Source: a virus. From it: a DNA stretch of 64,000 nucleotides. Positions within the stretch are counted from its first letter, which is position 1. Each line of letters starts with the position of its first letter. Positions 33,352 to 60,116 of this stretch are shown here, piece after piece. Both the position numbers and the translations under genes were made by a program. The notes beneath the pieces were generated by a model. It was not told where the DNA came from. It searched no databases and saw nothing but the letters and a program-made list of their open reading frames with translations. Where the stretch lies: IMG/VR virus record IMGVR_UViG_3300020469_003050, positions 188,001 through 252,000 of that record; one strand, given 5' to 3'.

Positions 33352-34386
33352 ATGATATGGACAGAATGGGATAAACTAACAGAGATTATTGTTGGTTCCA
33401 CTTATGATACAAAGTCTTTAGAACAATTCGATGATACACAATTTGTTGATAGTATGTCAAAGATACTAGAAGAAACAGAGCAAGATTTTCAAAAATTATC
33501 AGATATATTTAAATCAGCAGGTGTTAAAGTTCACAGACCAAATCCTCTACCTTTGAAATCTGAAAGTACAAGACAATGGAAATCAGATTTTCCATATCCT
33601 GCTATATGTCCTCGTGACCATCATATAGTTTATGGAGATACTATTATCAATACTATAGGTGGTGACTGTAATAGATATACTGAAAGTGATTACTTCTTAG
33701 ATATAATGTTAGAAAAACATAAAGAAGGAAGAAACTATATTGCAATGCCTAGACCTTTATTACAATCTCAGTATCAACATTATGAGACAATGGAACCTCA
33801 GATAATGTATCATGCCGCAAATATTATAAAATGCGGAGATACATTAATTCATTCAAGACCTTATAATGATTCTGAAGGCAGAGACTTTGGAGCAAGAGGC
33901 ACAAGAACAGGATTAGATTGGGTAAAAAGAAATATAGGTTGTGAAACTAAATGGATAGAAGTACCTGAGTGTGGACATGTCGATGGTATGTTAGCAATTA
34001 TTAAACCAGGATTACTAATGACATGGAAAGAAGAATATATTCCCGAAGAATTAAAACATTGGGATAAGATTATTTTAACACCATGGGATTTACCTGAGTG
34101 GTTTCATGAAATGAGAATACAACACTTCTATAAAGATAAAGTAGAAAATTGGCTATCACATTGGATTGGATATGTAGACGAAACAGTATTTGATTTAAAT
34201 GTAGTAAGTATTGACGAAAACACAGTAATTACAAATGGTCATGATAAAAGAATTGAAACTGAGTTAAAGAAATATGGTGTAGAAATGATACCGTTTGATT
34301 TTAGACATAAATATTTCTGGGACAGTGGATTACATTGCGTAACACTTGACTTAAGCAGAAATGGAGAAAGAGAAAGCTATGTATAA
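33352..34386 (+). CDS. Amidinotransferase-family enzyme
   Basis: A guanidino-group-modifying enzyme of the amidinotransferase / arginine deiminase fold, close in pattern to glycine amidinotransferases. The catalytic triad is visible: His209-x-Asp211 in ECGHVDGM and Cys329 in SGLHCVTLDL; the substrate-contact block CPRDHHIVYGD is at residues 86-96. The 344-residue length fits the family. It could make or consume arginine-derived compounds, but the substrate is not determined. It has a late box upstream and overlaps a 2OG oxygenase gene, then terminase, an unusual place for a metabolic gene. Confidence 0.83.
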   Translation: MIWTEWDKLTEIIVGSTYDTKSLEQFDDTQFVDSMSKILEETEQDFQKLSDIFKSAGVKVHRPNPLPLKSESTRQWKSDFPYPAICPRDHHIVYGDTIINTIGGDCNRYTESDYFLDIMLEKHKEGRNYIAMPRPLLQSQYQHYETMEPQIMYHAANIIKCGDTLIHSRPYNDSEGRDFGARGTRTGLDWVKRNIGCETKWIEVPECGHVDGMLAIIKPGLLMTWKEEYIPEELKHWDKIILTPWDLPEWFHEMRIQHFYKDKVENWLSHWIGYVDETVFDLNVVSIDENTVITNGHDKRIETELKKYGVEMIPFDFRHKYFWDSGLHCVTLDLSRNGERESYV

Positions 34387-53175: not shown

Positions 53176-53252
53176 GGACCCGTAGTTCAGCTGGATAGAA
53201 CGCCTGTCTACGAAACAGGAGGTCAGAGGTTCGAATCCTCTCGGGTCCGCCA
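53176..53252 (+). tRNA. tRNA-Arg (anticodon ACG)
   Basis: A full cloverleaf can be drawn: acceptor GGACCCG/CGGGTCC (53176-53182 with 53242-53248), D-stem GTTC/GAAC, anticodon stem CCTGT/ACAGG with loop CTACGAA, T-stem AGAGG/CCTCT around TTCGAAT, discriminator G and encoded CCA. The anticodon ACG needs A-to-I editing by host TadA to read CGT/CGC/CGA. CGT is the commonest Arg codon in the capsid and fibre genes here. It lies inside an operon and has no promoter of its own. Confidence 0.96.
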
Positions 53253-55315: not shown

Positions 55316-56082
55316 ACGTATTACCACAAAAAACTTACTTGCTAGAATACTTTGCTGGAACATATGGAGACTATATATCAGGTCTTATATCATATTCAGT
55401 AAAAGGGTTTTATGATGATTATGAGTTAAAAGACCAATGGAGATATTGGTCTGTTGATTATGCTTTAGTAAAAAGAAATAGATATTCGCTAAGTTTAAGA
55501 GGTGGTGGATATGAGTTTGTAGAAAAGTATAATGAGTTTATGCTTTCACGTATGATAGAAGATTTTCGCCCTCACTTTGACGAAATGAAACCAACTAAAG
55601 TCTTATTCAATACACACCCAAGACTTGTACAGAACAGACAACCAAATAGCAAAGAACATTATAGAACACTTGTAAATGATTTTACTAAAACAAACACACT
55701 GTTTTTGGCAGTGCCTTTAGAGTTTGAATCTATATTCAAAGTTGCATGTAATGAGTATTATACAAGTAAGATGCATACAGAAAATAATATGGAAAATTTT
55801 TTAGAATTATTTAAACTACATGCAGACAAACAAGCACTTGCTCTAAAAATAATACCCGATGAAAAACGTTTCATGCTACATGATGTAGATGATATTTCAC
55901 CAAAAGATATAGTACAGTTTGGCGATGTTGATAGAGAACGTTTTCTTTATTACCAAGATATGTATAACATGGAAAAGATGGAGTTACTAAATTGGCATAC
56001 TCAACGTCTTTTAAAAAAGACAGAATATAGTAATCCAGAAATAATTAAAGAAATGAAAGACTATGTTAAATCGTTAATGTAG
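55288..56082 (+). CDS. Hypothetical protein, 264 residues
   Basis: Start ATG 55288 lies inside the PRTase gene; GTG 55303 is an alternative. The protein has an N-terminal TYLLEYFAGTYGDYISGLIS segment that could be a degenerate nucleotide- or PAPS-binding loop, and a charged helical C-terminus. Sulfotransferase-like architecture is conceivable but no clear signature is present. It ends tail-to-tail with the minus-strand gene at 56061, overlapping by 22 bases. Confidence 0.6.
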   Translation: MGNISVGKIDVLPQKTYLLEYFAGTYGDYISGLISYSVKGFYDDYELKDQWRYWSVDYALVKRNRYSLSLRGGGYEFVEKYNEFMLSRMIEDFRPHFDEMKPTKVLFNTHPRLVQNRQPNSKEHYRTLVNDFTKTNTLFLAVPLEFESIFKVACNEYYTSKMHTENNMENFLELFKLHADKQALALKIIPDEKRFMLHDVDDISPKDIVQFGDVDRERFLYYQDMYNMEKMELLNWHTQRLLKKTEYSNPEIIKEMKDYVKSLM

Positions 56083-57083
56083 TTAGAAAGTAATTTTCTA
56101 TCTACGTAAGGTCTTATATTGTGTGTTTGAAAATCTGAAATCTTATAGTCTATTTCTTGTACATTTAAATTATCAAACTTAAACTGCTTAACATAATCAG
56201 CAAATCCAACATACTCAGTATCATACTTACCATATAGATAGTCTACTTTGATATTAGGATATGCATCTAAGTATCTGTATGGGTCTAATATCTTATTATC
56301 AATATTTAACTTTTTAAATCCCCAACATTTTACCATATGCATAATTGCAACATTAATCATATCTAGCTTTTGTTCTTCAAGGTGTGATGGTCTATTAAAC
56401 CATTTGAAATAAGATTTAATCCAAGGAGAATGTTCCCAAGAATATGTTGCTTGACCGGCTGTAGTTAATACGTTTGTTACTATATCACTTAGATGATATG
56501 CGACACTTAATGCACTACCGGCATGTTTAGAGTCTGCGTATATTATTACGTGCTTGTATTTTTTCTTAACATATTCTCTTATCTGATTACACATCTTTTC
56601 TTGTGTATCGTTCTTTTTACTTACACCTAATACCATTGCACTAGGATATAAAGACTCAGGATATCGTAATGGGTCTTCATTTACAATCAACAAGTCAGTA
56701 TCTAAGTTTACAATTTTCTCACTTACGTTTGTTAGTGGACTTGTCAATCTACCTTCATGTCCTGCATAACTTGTAAAGTGAATTATTAGTTTATCAAAAT
56801 CTTTGTCAGTTTTCTTCCAACACATAGTATAATCTTCACTGACATTTTCAAACTTATCAGTATCATATTGATATACCATGTCGGAATGAATATCCCAACT
56901 ACCTGTTCTTGCTTTTTGGGTGTAAGTATCTACTACATCTTTTTTATAAATCTTAGTGTAGATATCGCTACTTTTTATATTACGTAACTCTATATATTTT
57001 TCATATACTAGTTTTTCGTGTAAAAAGTATAAATCAAGTTCATCGTTTAGGTCTATATCTAAATCGAGTAGTTTAATTTTCAT
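56061..57083 (-). CDS. Alpha/beta-hydrolase-like protein in ACP operon
   Basis: A 340-residue protein. The middle has a fold-typical run: DKLIIHFTSYAGHEGRL, then HVIIYADSKHAGSALSVAYHL, where Ser in ADSKHAG lies where a nucleophile elbow would be, though the usual GxSxG glycines are missing. A thioesterase or acyltransferase working with the adjacent acyl carrier protein is the natural guess. It shares a boundary with the ACP gene (stop/start abut at 57083), so all three minus-strand genes are coupled. The function is inferred only. Confidence 0.55.
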   Translation of the reverse strand: MKIKLLDLDIDLNDELDLYFLHEKLVYEKYIELRNIKSSDIYTKIYKKDVVDTYTQKARTGSWDIHSDMVYQYDTDKFENVSEDYTMCWKKTDKDFDKLIIHFTSYAGHEGRLTSPLTNVSEKIVNLDTDLLIVNEDPLRYPESLYPSAMVLGVSKKNDTQEKMCNQIREYVKKKYKHVIIYADSKHAGSALSVAYHLSDIVTNVLTTAGQATYSWEHSPWIKSYFKWFNRPSHLEEQKLDMINVAIMHMVKCWGFKKLNIDNKILDPYRYLDAYPNIKVDYLYGKYDTEYVGFADYVKQFKFDNLNVQEIDYKISDFQTHNIRPYVDRKLLSNYINDLT

Positions 57084-57319
57084 TAATCATACTCCGCTAG
57101 ATACTCCACTAAATCTTTAACGTTTTTAATTTCGTCTAGTCTTTGGTTGTCTAATTCGATATCTAACTCGTCTTCTAGTGTAACTAGAATTTCAATACTA
57201 TCTAACGAATCAACGCCAATGTCTTTAAATGGTTGACCTGATTCGATAAACTCATCAGTTAGTTCAACCTCTGCCCTGTCAAGTGTAATTTCTTTTAGTG
57301 CCTTTAGTGTTCTGCTCAT
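57083..57319 (-). CDS. Acyl carrier protein
   Basis: A 78-residue ACP from ATG 57319, whose start is next to the stop of the radical SAM gene. The phosphopantetheine site is Ser38 in DIGVDSLDSIEILVTLEDEL, preceded by FIESGQPF and followed by an acidic helix III (VKDLVEYLAEYD). Acidic and the right length. A longer frame to 57430 would overlap the radical SAM gene fully and lacks support. It needs a host phosphopantetheinyl transferase. It carries acyl or other thioester-bound intermediates, here perhaps for a product made with the neighbouring enzymes. Confidence 0.9.
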   Translation of the reverse strand: MSRTLKALKEITLDRAEVELTDEFIESGQPFKDIGVDSLDSIEILVTLEDELDIELDNQRLDEIKNVKDLVEYLAEYD

Positions 57320-57320
57320 T

Positions 57321-58259
57321 TTAATAGCCGCCTTCATTCTCTTTTGTGTGTTCGTAAAATGGTGCAAGTTTGAAGTCTTGTGTAATACGTCCTCTTCTTT
57401 TGCTACCTGGGTCTGGAATACCACCTTCATTGTCAGTATCCCAATTAGTAATTTTTACCCATCTTCCTCTATTTAGAAGTTTATTTCCTTCCTTCAGTGG
57501 GAATAAAATAGTGTTCTTTTCGCTAAACTTATTGTAGTAAGGTACACCGTGAAAGCTCCAAATATAGTCCTCAGAGACATTAAATTGGTCTGCACATAGT
57601 TTTACTAGCCCTTCTAATTTAATGTTACCGTCTTTGTCTTTCTGATATCTACCTAATTGTCCAACGTTTTTAATTCTCATCATTACGTTGTTTATCTTTT
57701 CTTTCTCTATAAGTTCTTTTAATCTTGCTGGTGCTTCATAATTAATCTCTGGAATAATAATAGTACCAGTATTCAAATTCATTTTTCTATCTACGATATT
57801 ACGAAGTGCTTTTAGTTTTTTAGTTGCACAACGTAGTTCATCGATTTGTTCATACCAATCATCGTTATCTACTCCATTCAAACTTAAAGTTACACTACGT
57901 AATCCTGCTTCAATTAAAGTATTTAAATATTTTGGACGTGATAATCTTAATCCATTTGTTACTAAAGTACAACTATGCTTTCTACCATTGGTACGTCCAT
58001 GCTCATATACTGCACGAATAAAATTTGCACAGTTAGGAGACATTGTAGGTTCTGCACCGATAATACGTACAAATGCTCGACCACCAAGCCTATCCATGAA
58101 ATCCTTAAATCTATCTAAGTCCATATCAGGTGGTTCTCTGCTAGGTATATAACAGTTCTTACAAGTCATGTTGCATTTATGCGTGATATCTGCACATATA
58201 TCTACAAACGTATTTTCTTCTGGTTCTGTAATCTCATAATTAAAGAGTTTATGAAGCAT
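57321..58259 (-). CDS. Radical SAM enzyme upstream of ACP
   Basis: Start at 58259 (MLHKLFNYEI), because the late promoter at 58297-58304 leaves no room for the longer frame; AAGG lies upstream. The 312-residue protein has the cluster motif C29-x3-C33-x2-C36 (KCNMTCKNC), a GAEPTMSP loop for SAM, and TLSLNGV. There is no obvious SPASM Cys set at the C-terminus. Family members modify peptides, lipids or cofactors. It forms an operon with ACP and a hydrolase-like gene. Confidence 0.85.
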   Translation of the reverse strand: MLHKLFNYEITEPEENTFVDICADITHKCNMTCKNCYIPSREPPDMDLDRFKDFMDRLGGRAFVRIIGAEPTMSPNCANFIRAVYEHGRTNGRKHSCTLVTNGLRLSRPKYLNTLIEAGLRSVTLSLNGVDNDDWYEQIDELRCATKKLKALRNIVDRKMNLNTGTIIIPEINYEAPARLKELIEKEKINNVMMRIKNVGQLGRYQKDKDGNIKLEGLVKLCADQFNVSEDYIWSFHGVPYYNKFSEKNTILFPLKEGNKLLNRGRWVKITNWDTDNEGGIPDPGSKRRGRITQDFKLAPFYEHTKENEGGY

Positions 58260-58274
58260 ATAGTTTTGTACCTT

Positions 58275-58282
58275 AATAAATA
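58275..58282 (+). promoter_or_regulatory. Candidate + strand late box AATAAATA
   Basis: 7 of 8 match, 41 bases before the dioxygenase gene at 58323. It faces the minus-strand late box 15 bases away, so the two would produce overlapping transcripts. Confidence 0.45.
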
Positions 58283-58296
58283 TGTTTATGTACATC

Positions 58297-58304
58297 TATT
58301 TATC
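58297..58304 (-). promoter_or_regulatory. Late promoter GATAAATA for radical SAM/ACP operon
   Basis: Reverse complement of TATTTATC; 38 bases before the chosen radical SAM start. It places this metabolic operon in the late class, with virion genes. Confidence 0.73.
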
Positions 58305-58322
58305 GTCCCGGGAAATGCGCCA

Positions 58323-58931
58323 ATGTTAAAGCATTTATACAAATTCGATTATCGAATTGACAAGGACCAACTCAGAAAAGAACACAAGTTGATGCAAGAA
58401 AGTAATGATACTTCTTTGCATAATGTTAATACCGATTTATTAGAAAAAGTTAATGCAGGCAGAGAAACTGGTGAAGATATTTTCCCTACATATCATGATT
58501 TAAAAGATAAAGAGCAATGGGATAATATGGATACTTTGAAAATAAGAGCATTCAATGAATATCAATATCAAGATGATTGTCCAGAAATGAAAAGATTAAC
58601 TAATGATTTTGCTAAGATATTAGATAGTAAAGACATAACACCGTTCTTTGTATTACAAGAGCAAAACTCAGACTTTCCAATGCATATTGATATGGGGTTT
58701 CAATGTGCAATAAACTTAATTATAGATGGTGGAGATACACCAATTATGTTCAGAGAAGACGATGGATCTATACATAAATACAACTACGATAACGCATTAC
58801 TTAACATCTGTAACGTCTTTCACGGTGTACCTAAACAACAAGATATGAAAAGAATGTTACTTAAATTTAGAATAAAAGATGTATCGTATAATAATGCATG
58901 TAAGCGAATGATGGAGTACTTTAGTGAATAA
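58323..58931 (+). CDS. 2OG/Fe(II) dioxygenase-like protein, paralogue 1
   Basis: Start at 58323 after GGGA; a frame extending left overlaps the divergent promoter. The 202-residue protein has His121-x-Asp123 (PMHIDMG), His167 (VFHGVP) and Arg177 (KRMLLKF), the layout of aspartyl/asparaginyl-hydroxylase-type double-stranded beta-helix enzymes. A GGDTPIMFREDDG loop precedes the second His. It overlaps paralogue 2 (GTG start). The target is unknown; a protein-bound or ACP-bound substrate is possible because the ACP operon is divergent. Confidence 0.75.
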   Translation: MLKHLYKFDYRIDKDQLRKEHKLMQESNDTSLHNVNTDLLEKVNAGRETGEDIFPTYHDLKDKEQWDNMDTLKIRAFNEYQYQDDCPEMKRLTNDFAKILDSKDITPFFVLQEQNSDFPMHIDMGFQCAINLIIDGGDTPIMFREDDGSIHKYNYDNALLNICNVFHGVPKQQDMKRMLLKFRIKDVSYNNACKRMMEYFSE

Positions 58932-59487
58932 TTCTATACATAATATAGATTTTGATATTGACAAAGATAAGCTAATAGAAGAAAGCAATCATTGTCAGTT
59001 TGTACCAATCAATCGTGTTACATTAAAACGTGTTCAGTTAGGTAGCTATGATGCAAAAGGTAGAAAGTTTTCTGATTATCTTAACAAGGAAGATAAAGAT
59101 TGGTGGATGCGACAAGATACTTGGCAATCAAGTATGAATGCTGATGCTGATATGTTAACTAAGATGCCAGAGACTACTAGAATACTTTCTATATTTAAAG
59201 AGAGATTAGACACTAATGATATTGAGGCTAACTTTTTTACGCAAAAAGTAGGCACTAATGTTAAGATGCATGTTGATGTTGGTACATCTTGTGCTATAAA
59301 CTTTATACTCAGAGGAGAAGAAACTCCGATAGTATTTGAAGAAGATGGTACATTTTATTATAAAGATGCATTAATAAATGTTAGTAAGAAACATATGGTA
59401 CCAGAACAAACATCTACAGATAGAATGCTTTTTAAATTAAGAATTTTAAATATGCCATTTGAAGAAGTAAGAGAAAAACTGATATGA
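58924..59487 (+). CDS. 2OG/Fe(II) dioxygenase-like protein, paralogue 2
   Basis: 187 residues with a GTG start overlapping paralogue 1. Same active-site order: His116-x-Asp118 (KMHVDVG), His157 (KKHMVPE), Arg167 (DRMLFKL), and matching flanks (CAINFILRGEETPIVFEEDG against CAINLIIDGGDTPIMFREDD). A tandem duplication is clear; the N-terminal 60 residues differ. The genes overlap the desaturase start (ATGA), implying one translation unit. Confidence 0.75.
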   Translation: MNNSIHNIDFDIDKDKLIEESNHCQFVPINRVTLKRVQLGSYDAKGRKFSDYLNKEDKDWWMRQDTWQSSMNADADMLTKMPETTRILSIFKERLDTNDIEANFFTQKVGTNVKMHVDVGTSCAINFILRGEETPIVFEEDGTFYYKDALINVSKKHMVPEQTSTDRMLFKLRILNMPFEEVREKLI

Positions 59488-60116
59488 ACAAAAGCCAAAT
59501 ATTTATATTATTACATCATGTATCGTTAGCAGTAGGCATTGCGATGTATGGGTTTCAATGGCCATGGGCTATCGTAGTATTTTTGTTTGGAATGTTTTGG
59601 GCTTGGGTAGTAGGACATAATATTATTCATTATTATTTTGCTCATGGCAAATACGAGGACAATCTTAAAAGTTATTTTTATACTTTACTGTCATTAACGT
59701 CTGGATTAGGATCACCAATATCATTCAGTGCTTCACACAGACAACATCATAGATTTACAGACACAGAAAAAGATCCACACTCGCCACATCATATAGGATG
59801 GAAACGTGTATACTTTTTAGATTGGGAACCACAAAATATCAATCCTAGACTTCTTGCTGATTTTGCCAGAAGTAAATTTCAAAAATGGGTTCACAAACAT
59901 TGGTATTATTTGCATATTGCAATCGTATTAGTGATTGCTCTTATAGATTTAAGATTGCTATTCTTTGCGTTATCTCCAGGAGTTCTGTATAGTTTTCACA
60001 GTGCCAGTTTGACAAATACATTGTCTCATATTGGCGGAGTGCATAGAAATGTACAGTTGCTAAAACCCCTTGCATGGTGGGGGTGGAACCATGCTGACCA
60101 TCACGATTATAAGTAA
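59484..60116 (+). CDS. Fatty-acid desaturase
   Basis: A 210-residue integral membrane di-iron desaturase. Three His boxes are present: HNIIHYYFAH (45-54), HRQHH (85-89) and HADHH (203-207). There are about four membrane helices (8-24, 28-44, 62-78, 142-164). It is shorter than usual acyl-CoA desaturases (about 300) because it ends three residues after the last box. It would need host or phage electron donors (ferredoxin or rubredoxin). Coupled to the two dioxygenase genes and close to an ACP, so modification of acyl chains is a coherent guess. Confidence 0.87.
   Translation: MNKSQIFILLHHVSLAVGIAMYGFQWPWAIVVFLFGMFWAWVVGHNIIHYYFAHGKYEDNLKSYFYTLLSLTSGLGSPISFSASHRQHHRFTDTEKDPHSPHHIGWKRVYFLDWEPQNINPRLLADFARSKFQKWVHKHWYYLHIAIVLVIALIDLRLLFFALSPGVLYSFHSASLTNTLSHIGGVHRNVQLLKPLAWWGWNHADHHDYK

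Follow-up and report, generated by a model that had tools for sequence, protein, structure and literature searches.

A candidate late-transcribed tailoring module of an acyl carrier protein-dependent pathway in a large uncultured ocean phage

The window (the whole stretch of 64,000 nucleotides that was analysed) belongs to an uncultured ocean virus of bacteria, whose 342.6-kb genome (labelled G000) carries T4-like genes. Six of its genes form two divergent operons. The minus-strand operon encodes a radical SAM enzyme (RSAM, 57321..58259), a 78-aa acyl carrier protein (ACP1, 57083..57319) and an alpha/beta-hydrolase-fold protein (HYD, 56061..57083), while the plus-strand operon encodes two 2OG-Fe(II) oxygenase-like paralogues (OXA, 58323..58931, and OXB, 58924..59487) and a putative membrane desaturase with three His boxes (DES1, 59484..60116). 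All six open reading frames listed in a preliminary description of this DNA were recovered where it had placed them, and the overlaps reported there are genuine: the ACP stop with the HYD start, OXA with OXB (whose GTG start lies inside the OXA end), and OXB with DES1 (ATGA). Purifying selection acts on each of the six genes (dN/dS 0.03-0.17).

The radical SAM identity of the first product is well founded, as both marks of the superfamily are present, namely the PF04055 core (4e-16) and a CxxxCxxC motif that is invariant in a 15-sequence alignment. Its start is probably 58259 rather than the originally assigned 58295, because the late box described below stops just 2 nt ahead of 58295, and the orthologues in L024 and L026 begin at the downstream Met. 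The closest PDB profile matches were tetraether lipid synthase (Tes, 2.6e-19) and MoaA (8e-17). Assignment as Tes itself was rejected (36.9 bits against the 450-bit cut-off of NCBIfam NF045702, the core domain alone being common), and a SPASM peptide maturase was ruled out, as just four Cys are invariant in the alignment and the seven-Cys C-terminal auxiliary-cluster domain is absent. No relatives of RSAM were found among the 50,697 phage records of INPHARED.

The preliminary description had staked its reading on an ACP fold for the second product, and the ACP call is borne out: PF00550 is matched at 4.8e-11 (43.2 bits against a cut-off of 20.8), and the GVDSLDS motif aligns with ACPs in PDB (1.3e-9). 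The match to TIGR00517 (5.5e-12) lies under that model's cut-off. The start that places the motif's Ser at position 38 is 57319. G000 has two ACPs beyond ACP1, including a paralogue, ACP2, that is 58% identical to it, plus a holo-ACP synthase (AcpS; TIGR00516, 85.7 bits against a curated cut-off of 59.8) with relatives in PDB. AcpS was seen in 3/28 and 1/45 records, most of which are fragments. The INPHARED matches to ketosynthase, ACP and AcpS were mostly unannotated fragments resembling host DNA, with the exception of the ACPs of P-HM1, P-HM2 and MED4-213.

A sequence-family search gave no match for HYD, and a sequence-only PDB search gave nothing useful for either HYD or OXA. The AF2 model of HYD (pLDDT 87, pTM 0.89) matches alpha/beta-hydrolases, in agreement with the earlier hydrolase-like label, and Foldseek pairs it with esterases and lipases at a probability of 1.00. 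By this model and the alignment, HYD is an alpha/beta-hydrolase fold with a predicted nucleophile-Asp-His triad, for which conservation and topology point to Ser185-Asp288-His321; Ser185 is replaced by Cys in L035 and L040. The fold resembles esterases, and no acyltransferase signature was found in HYD.

The claim of two 2OG-oxygenase paralogues stands in part. The OXA model (AF2 pLDDT 76) is matched by Foldseek to prolyl-4-hydroxylase and PiuC, and the HxD...H residues (H121/D123/H167 in OXA) are invariant in the family, but both proteins fall below every family cut-off: a sequence-family search with OXA gave no match, and the best one for OXB (32% identical to OXA) was PF05118 (Asp_Arg_Hydrox) at 0.027. 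Thus, the fold of the OXA model and the HxD...H residues fit enzymes of the PF05118 kind, while the scores do not reach family cut-offs; oxygenases neighbouring RSAM at other loci do score above the PF05118 cut-off. DES1 has the His boxes HNIIHYYFAH, HRQHH and HADHH and matches the DesA family at 2.7e-8 and PF00487 (FA_desaturase) at 2.7e-6 (27.8 bits, just below the cut-off of 29.7). Its G000 paralogue DES3 clears the latter cut-off with 42.7 bits, and the genome has three predicted membrane desaturases.

Late-transcription signals precede both operons and are conserved in relatives; the preliminary description had placed a late box ahead of the minus-strand operon. The box of the RSAM-ACP-HYD operon, GATAAATA (58297..58304, minus strand), is kept ahead of RSAM in L021, L022, L024-L027, L029, L031 and L032, and the late-box-like AATAAATA (58275..58282, plus strand), 40 nt before the OXA ATG at 58323, is kept in the same intergenic region among relatives retaining OXA. 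There are 13 copies of GATAAATA in the window against 6.6 expected; 10 of them lie within about 75 nt upstream of ORFs of the 7-37 kb structural region (about 25-75 nt) or within an ORF's first bases. The boxes fix timing, not function. They would also suit protein or glycan acylation, i.e. a modified acyl group passed from the ACP by HYD (as an acyltransferase) or by a GNAT to a virion protein or surface glycan. The ACP of cyanophage P-HM1 is located among baseplate and fibre genes, and the Salmonella IacP offers a precedent, being reported (PMC5279801) as a dedicated ACP that acylates a secretion translocon. On the other hand, the G000 cassette adjoins replication genes, not tail genes, and the esterase-like HYD fold without acyltransferase signature argues against such a transfer, which makes this explanation very improbable.

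The neighbourhood search proposed in the preliminary description supports a non-random association of the gene families. The idea of the six genes as one acyl cassette survives as a single acyl-centred logic but not as a closed set, since parts are missing in relatives and key enzymes lie elsewhere in the genome. A fixed six-gene operon set was rejected, as relatives lose the ACP or the oxygenases: at the window locus the ACP is absent from L024-L029 and both oxygenases from L027-L029, and HYD alone remains in L087-L090, L093 and L095. Across 49 non-redundant RSAM loci, the steadiest neighbour is not the ACP (7 loci; absent within 4.5 kb in the other 42) but a 2OG oxygenase (41 loci), followed by GNAT-like proteins (18, most of these calls being clusters without a Pfam match), desaturases (13) and AMP-ligases (10). 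RSAM chemistry therefore need not take place on the ACP, given also that several relatives have lost the ACP where RSAM and HYD lie. Variable gene content at the window locus, the changing cargo of the MoxR-VWA locus, where different cassettes take one another's place, and the abundance of 2OG oxygenases in marine phages (PMC3037559) would all be compatible with unconnected auxiliary genes gathered by a large phage at cargo hotspots. We consider this highly unlikely, as a 2OG neighbour would be expected at about 15% of RSAM loci (our own estimate, with some five 2OG spots in G000) but is present at 41 of 49, the same families repeatedly recombine with one another, and in 45 records the ACP never occurs without the ketosynthase cassette described below.

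This second cassette of G000, outside the window, encodes an AMP-ligase, a halogenase-family flavoprotein, two desaturases, an acyltransferase-like protein and a FabF-like ketosynthase (KS) with intact Cys-His-His catalytic residues by alignment with FabF. G000 thus has the separate KS, ACP and PPTase of type II fatty-acid and polyketide synthases. Reading its ORF lists by eye and running a few HMM scans turned up no ketoreductase, dehydratase, enoylreductase or malonyl-transferase, and therefore host enzymes must be assumed. The flavoprotein belongs to PF04820 and retains the catalytic Lys and first Glu; a role as flavin-dependent halogenase was rejected, and halogenation is doubtful because the WxWxIP and EPLESTG motifs are degenerate (WNFIIS and EPMEGNA). 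Judged from gene order and content, relatives link the window cassette with the KS cassette. The ACP is present in 12/24 records with the KS cassette and 0/21 related records without it, and RSAM in 5/24 and 0/21, respectively, the 45 records being related rather than independent. A single contig (L031 and L101) bears both RSAM-ACP-HYD-HYD and ligase-halogenase-DES-GNAT-KS, KS is immediately followed by a HYD homologue in L102/L146 and by a DES1 homologue in L156, and AcpS-RSAM-ACP are contiguous in one contig (L035).

The same neighbourhoods bear on two further explanations. In one, the ACP carries an amino or hydroxy acid, from which RSAM, Asp/Asn-hydroxylase-like enzymes and a GNAT make a small amino-acid-derived metabolite. 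The core partners of RSAM (PF05118/TauD oxygenases and GNAT-like proteins) do accompany it also in ACP-less bacterial MAG contigs (L214, L219, L223), and in one lineage they are joined by a class IV aminotransferase, a methyltransferase and a B12 radical SAM enzyme. Yet the AMP-ligase matches acyl-CoA ligases (4e-61) more closely than it does amino-acid adenylation domains (4e-29), and desaturases and KS indicate hydrocarbon chains, so we regard this chemistry as unlikely. In the other, desaturases, oxygenases and ACP would alter acyl chains of host phospholipids or lipid A (fluidity, cold adaptation, superinfection block) with no dedicated small molecule. The three membrane desaturases of G000 are consistent with such remodelling, as is PF05118, the family of the commonest RSAM neighbour, to whose kind the acyl-chain hydroxylases LpxO and OlsC belong. 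Radical SAM, halogenase-family flavoprotein, AMP-ligase and KS, however, are unusual for simple membrane tuning, and DES1 is absent from the HYD-only lineage (L087-L095). Membrane remodelling is the interpretation already given to desC/fabF/fabG/fabZ reads of marine viromes and to the ACP of Rhodobacteraceae prophages (PMC10653327, PMC11705849); for G000 it appears an unlikely one.

We place at about an even chance the reading that the six genes are a tailoring module, transcribed late, in an ACP-dependent pathway of type II fatty-acid/polyketide-like kind that the virus itself encodes and whose other parts lie elsewhere in the genome. The gene content suggests a virus-made fatty-acyl product late in infection. 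AcpS would arm the ACP with phosphopantetheine, the AMP-ligase would load a fatty acid, and KS could extend the chain using host malonyl-ACP and host reductive enzymes. Desaturases, 2OG oxygenases and RSAM may then introduce functional groups at unactivated C-H positions along the carrier- or membrane-bound chain, and the Ser/Cys hydrolase HYD or the acyltransferase-like protein might release or transfer the completed acyl group, yielding a modified fatty acid, N-acyl compound or lipid. A stronger version is tentative and rather doubtful: a marine jumbo-phage lineage with a complete, virus-dedicated acyl-carrier assembly line (PPTase, ACPs, ligase, KS, desaturases, C-H functionalisation by RSAM and 2OG enzymes, release enzyme) that would produce one particular small molecule or lipid during late infection, and in which RSAM chemistry on a carrier-bound acyl chain would be without described counterpart. 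Phages known so far carry metabolic genes singly and, in rare cases, clusters of bacteriocin-like type. If the proposed pathway is real, uncultured ocean phages with a conserved ACP-dependent route would be producers of specialised acyl metabolites or lipids in their own right, and a defined enzyme set, above all the RSAM-2OG pair with HYD, would be available for a product search.

The preliminary description knew of no phage system of this composition, and the combination was indeed not found in the collections searched, whose scope left subscription papers and preprints outside. Its single elements have precedents: ACP/AcpS pairs standing alone in phages, halogenases in viruses and biosynthetic clusters in phages have been described before. 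Tes resembles RSAM as its top PDB profile match and as a radical SAM enzyme acting on lipid chains, but MoaA is nearly as close and RSAM is not a Tes family member. In ornithine-lipid and lipid A tailoring, the GNAT OlsB uses acyl-ACP, and OlsC and LpxO are 2OG hydroxylases; acyl-ACP, a GNAT-type acyltransferase and a PF05118-type acyl-chain hydroxylase are thus shared with G000 by enzyme kind rather than by homology to OlsB/OlsC, and to our knowledge no radical SAM, KS or halogenase-family enzyme takes part there. Phage biosynthetic gene clusters (Dragos et al. 2021, as covered in the review PMC10452541) are described as rare and mostly of temperate phages; what they would share with G000 is the presence of specialised-metabolite genes in a phage. 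G000 differs in its large size, its T4-like genes and late boxes, and in the dispersal of its proposed type II ACP pathway. Genes of the viral flavin halogenase VirX1/prnA kind in cyanophages and pelagiphages (same review) likewise place a halogenase-family flavoprotein in marine phages, often beside a 2OG oxygenase; the G000 protein has <35% identity to phage relatives among the matches listed and lies between AMP-ligase and desaturase. The Prochlorococcus phages P-HM1 and P-HM2 carry a pair of ACP and ACP synthase (T4-GC457, T4-GC500; PMC3037559). Within 8 kb of their ACP, which sits among baseplate and fibre genes in both, no radical SAM, KS or desaturase is annotated, unlike in G000. Like G000, they are T4-like marine phages that encode both ACP and AcpS; the two genomes also have asparaginyl hydroxylase-like and taurine-dioxygenase genes; the pathway proposed here, if true, would offer a reason for these unexplained cyanophage ACP and AcpS genes.

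All six genes that the preliminary description had placed in the late cassette were borne out. On the minus strand, a radical SAM enzyme (RSAM; stop codon 57321-57323), an acyl carrier protein (ACP; ATG at 57319) and a hydrolase (HYD, whose ATG overlaps the stop of ACP at 57083) form a gapless run. Divergently, on the plus strand, lie the overlapping genes of two oxygenase paralogues, OXA and OXB (GTG at 58924), and a desaturase (DES1, ATGA overlap at 59484). The dN/dS values of 0.03-0.17 for all six, each computed against those relatives that carry the gene, argue that they are functional rather than decaying cargo. The window (188001-252000 in G000, a virus record of 342,607 bases) also contains T4-like genes for portal, head protease, major head protein, tail sheath, terminase, UvsX, NrdA, helicase and primase. 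The motif GATAAATA occurs in it 13 times (vs 6.6 expected from shuffles), with the majority of copies in the structural region (7-37 kb), about 22-75 nt upstream of ORFs, a placement that fits a T4-like late box. One minus-strand copy (58304-58297) forms an intergenic divergent pair with a plus-strand box, AATAAATA (58275-58282); it is kept 5' of RSAM in relatives with protein identities as low as about 65%, and its position makes 58259 the probable RSAM start. The sole tRNA of the window, tRNA-Arg (anticodon ACG; 53176-53252), is overlapped by spurious ORFs on both strands. Two amidinotransferase-like genes were seen by eye, one preceded by a late-type box (window 33352-34386) and one at G000:C1:330460-331698.

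The ACP is unambiguous by sequence. RSAM has the CxxxCxxC motif and, in the alignment, lacks the SPASM-type cysteine set; its closest solved structures, tetraether lipid synthase (2.6e-19) and MoaA (8e-17), have a core domain in common with it, which does not make it a member of either family. OXA and OXB are classed as 2OG-oxygenase-like from predicted fold and HxD...H, and DES1 has three His boxes. Family and PDB sequence searches found no HYD relative of known function, and structure comparison identified its AlphaFold2 model (pTM 0.89) as an alpha/beta-hydrolase. The likely triad is Ser185, D288 and H321; the latter two are invariant among homologues, and Ser185 becomes Cys in the two most distant ones, a swap that would be typical of acyl-enzyme chemistry.

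Elsewhere, G000 carries a contiguous row comprising an AMP-ligase (82103-83467), a halogenase-family flavoprotein (83470-85146), a desaturase-like gene (85146-85871), a GNAT-like gene (86032-86652), a desaturase (86642-87418) and a FabF-like ketosynthase (KS; 87402-88550), together with AcpS (315977-316390, scoring above the curated cut-off). Aligned, KS retains Cys-His-His and Lys. In the flavoprotein, the Lys and first Glu of halogenases are present and WxWxIP and the halide-site residues are not, so that halogenation cannot be taken as implied. Inspection of G000 by eye turned up no ketoreductase, dehydratase, enoylreductase or malonyl-transferase, and the pathway would therefore have to rely on host enzymes. 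A second ACP (ACP2) lies at 114981-115217. A third, distinct one (G000:C1:34124-34363; L004:14124-14363) stands in a row that by eye resembles Fe-S cluster assembly (J-domain HscB-like, two IscA-like and nitroreductase-like genes); in mitochondria, links between ACP and Fe-S are known.

Several relatives join the two cassettes. A single contig (L031 and L101) bears both RSAM-ACP-HYD-HYD and ligase-flavoprotein-DES-GNAT-KS; a HYD homologue (37-40%; L102/L146) or a DES1 homologue (43%; L156) lies immediately 3' of KS; and L035 has AcpS, RSAM, ACP and a distantly related hydrolase homologue side by side. By eye, an SbmA/BacA-like peptide transporter homologue was seen at G000:C1:77006-77980, with a relative close to the L035 RSAM-ACP locus. 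With the neighbouring MoxR gene as anchor, 45 records were compared, 24 with the KS cassette and 21 lacking it. ACP was present in 12/24 vs 0/21 (Fisher one-sided p about 9e-5, our arithmetic; about 8/14 vs 0/15 with near-identical records collapsed by eye), RSAM in 5/24 vs 0/21 and AcpS in 1/24 vs 0/21. As the records are related and fragmentary, the ACP-KS co-occurrence is support, not proof. The MoxR-VWA interval (L143-L186) is a cargo hotspot of this phage clade, seen empty, with ligase only, with ligase-GNAT-short ligase, or with the full ligase-flavoprotein-DES-GNAT-KS set.

We give roughly even chances to a cassette whose enzymes would tailor an acyl chain, carried by the phage's own holo-ACP or sited in the membrane, and then release it; every chemical step here is one that we infer, beside observed gene identities and associations. 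The main weakness of this reading is that RSAM mostly occurs with no ACP nearby, so it could instead act on an amino acid or some other small molecule. Within 4.5 kb of RSAM in 49 non-redundant loci, a 2OG oxygenase was present in 41, mostly immediately adjacent (about 15% by chance, our estimate from roughly five 2OG spots in G000), the commonest kinds passing PF05118 or TauD; GNAT-like genes followed (18), then desaturase (13), AMP-ligase (10), ACP (7) and HYD (5). Contigs binned as Rhodospirillales, Roseibium and Bdellovibrionales combine GNAT, 2OG oxygenase and RSAM without ACP. These counts and contigs point to the oxygenase as the fixed partner of RSAM; ACP, ligase, desaturase and hydrolase are additions in some lineages. 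An RSAM-ACP pair in L032 occupies the site where G000 has ACP2 alone, between PF05118-like g114326 and g115575, suggesting that the pair has moved within the phage clade.

Other clusters were noted in passing. In one phage lineage (L213, L036, L243-L259), RSAM is accompanied by a class IV aminotransferase, a methyltransferase, a B12-binding radical SAM protein, an IMPDH/GMP-reductase-like protein, several 2OG oxygenases and a short AMP-ligase; this set appears to be a further small-molecule cluster. A further G000 cassette (C1:38891-45042; L004/L007) holds GNAT-like, truncated AMP-ligase (PF00501 1e-13), sulfotransferase-like, PP-loop and 2OG-like genes; homologues of its short ligase and GNAT are paired with RSAM in L036 and with a class IV aminotransferase in L153. 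At G000:C1:95597-106775 and 137439-146886, genes that by eye are radical SAM/SPASM-like and glycosyltransferase-like form long arrays, which possibly serve surface glycan or peptide modification.

Phage-borne biosynthetic genes are already known, and no report of the G000 combination was found in the literature searched. According to a review (PMC10452541), biosynthetic clusters are rare in phages and come mostly from temperate ones, halogenase-family genes are common in cyanophages, and VirX1 is a characterised, iodinating viral halogenase; viral reads of fabF, fabG, fabZ and desC have been reported (PMC10653327). ACPs are reported from Alteromonas phage R22Y (PMC11705849) and Erythrobacter phage R6L (PMC5463345), and from P-HM1 and P-HM2 alongside ACP synthase and asparaginyl hydroxylases (PMC3037559). 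On inspection, the P-HM1 ACP sits among structural genes, and the MED4-213 ACP locus, annotated as hypothetical proteins only, has by appearance the same layout.
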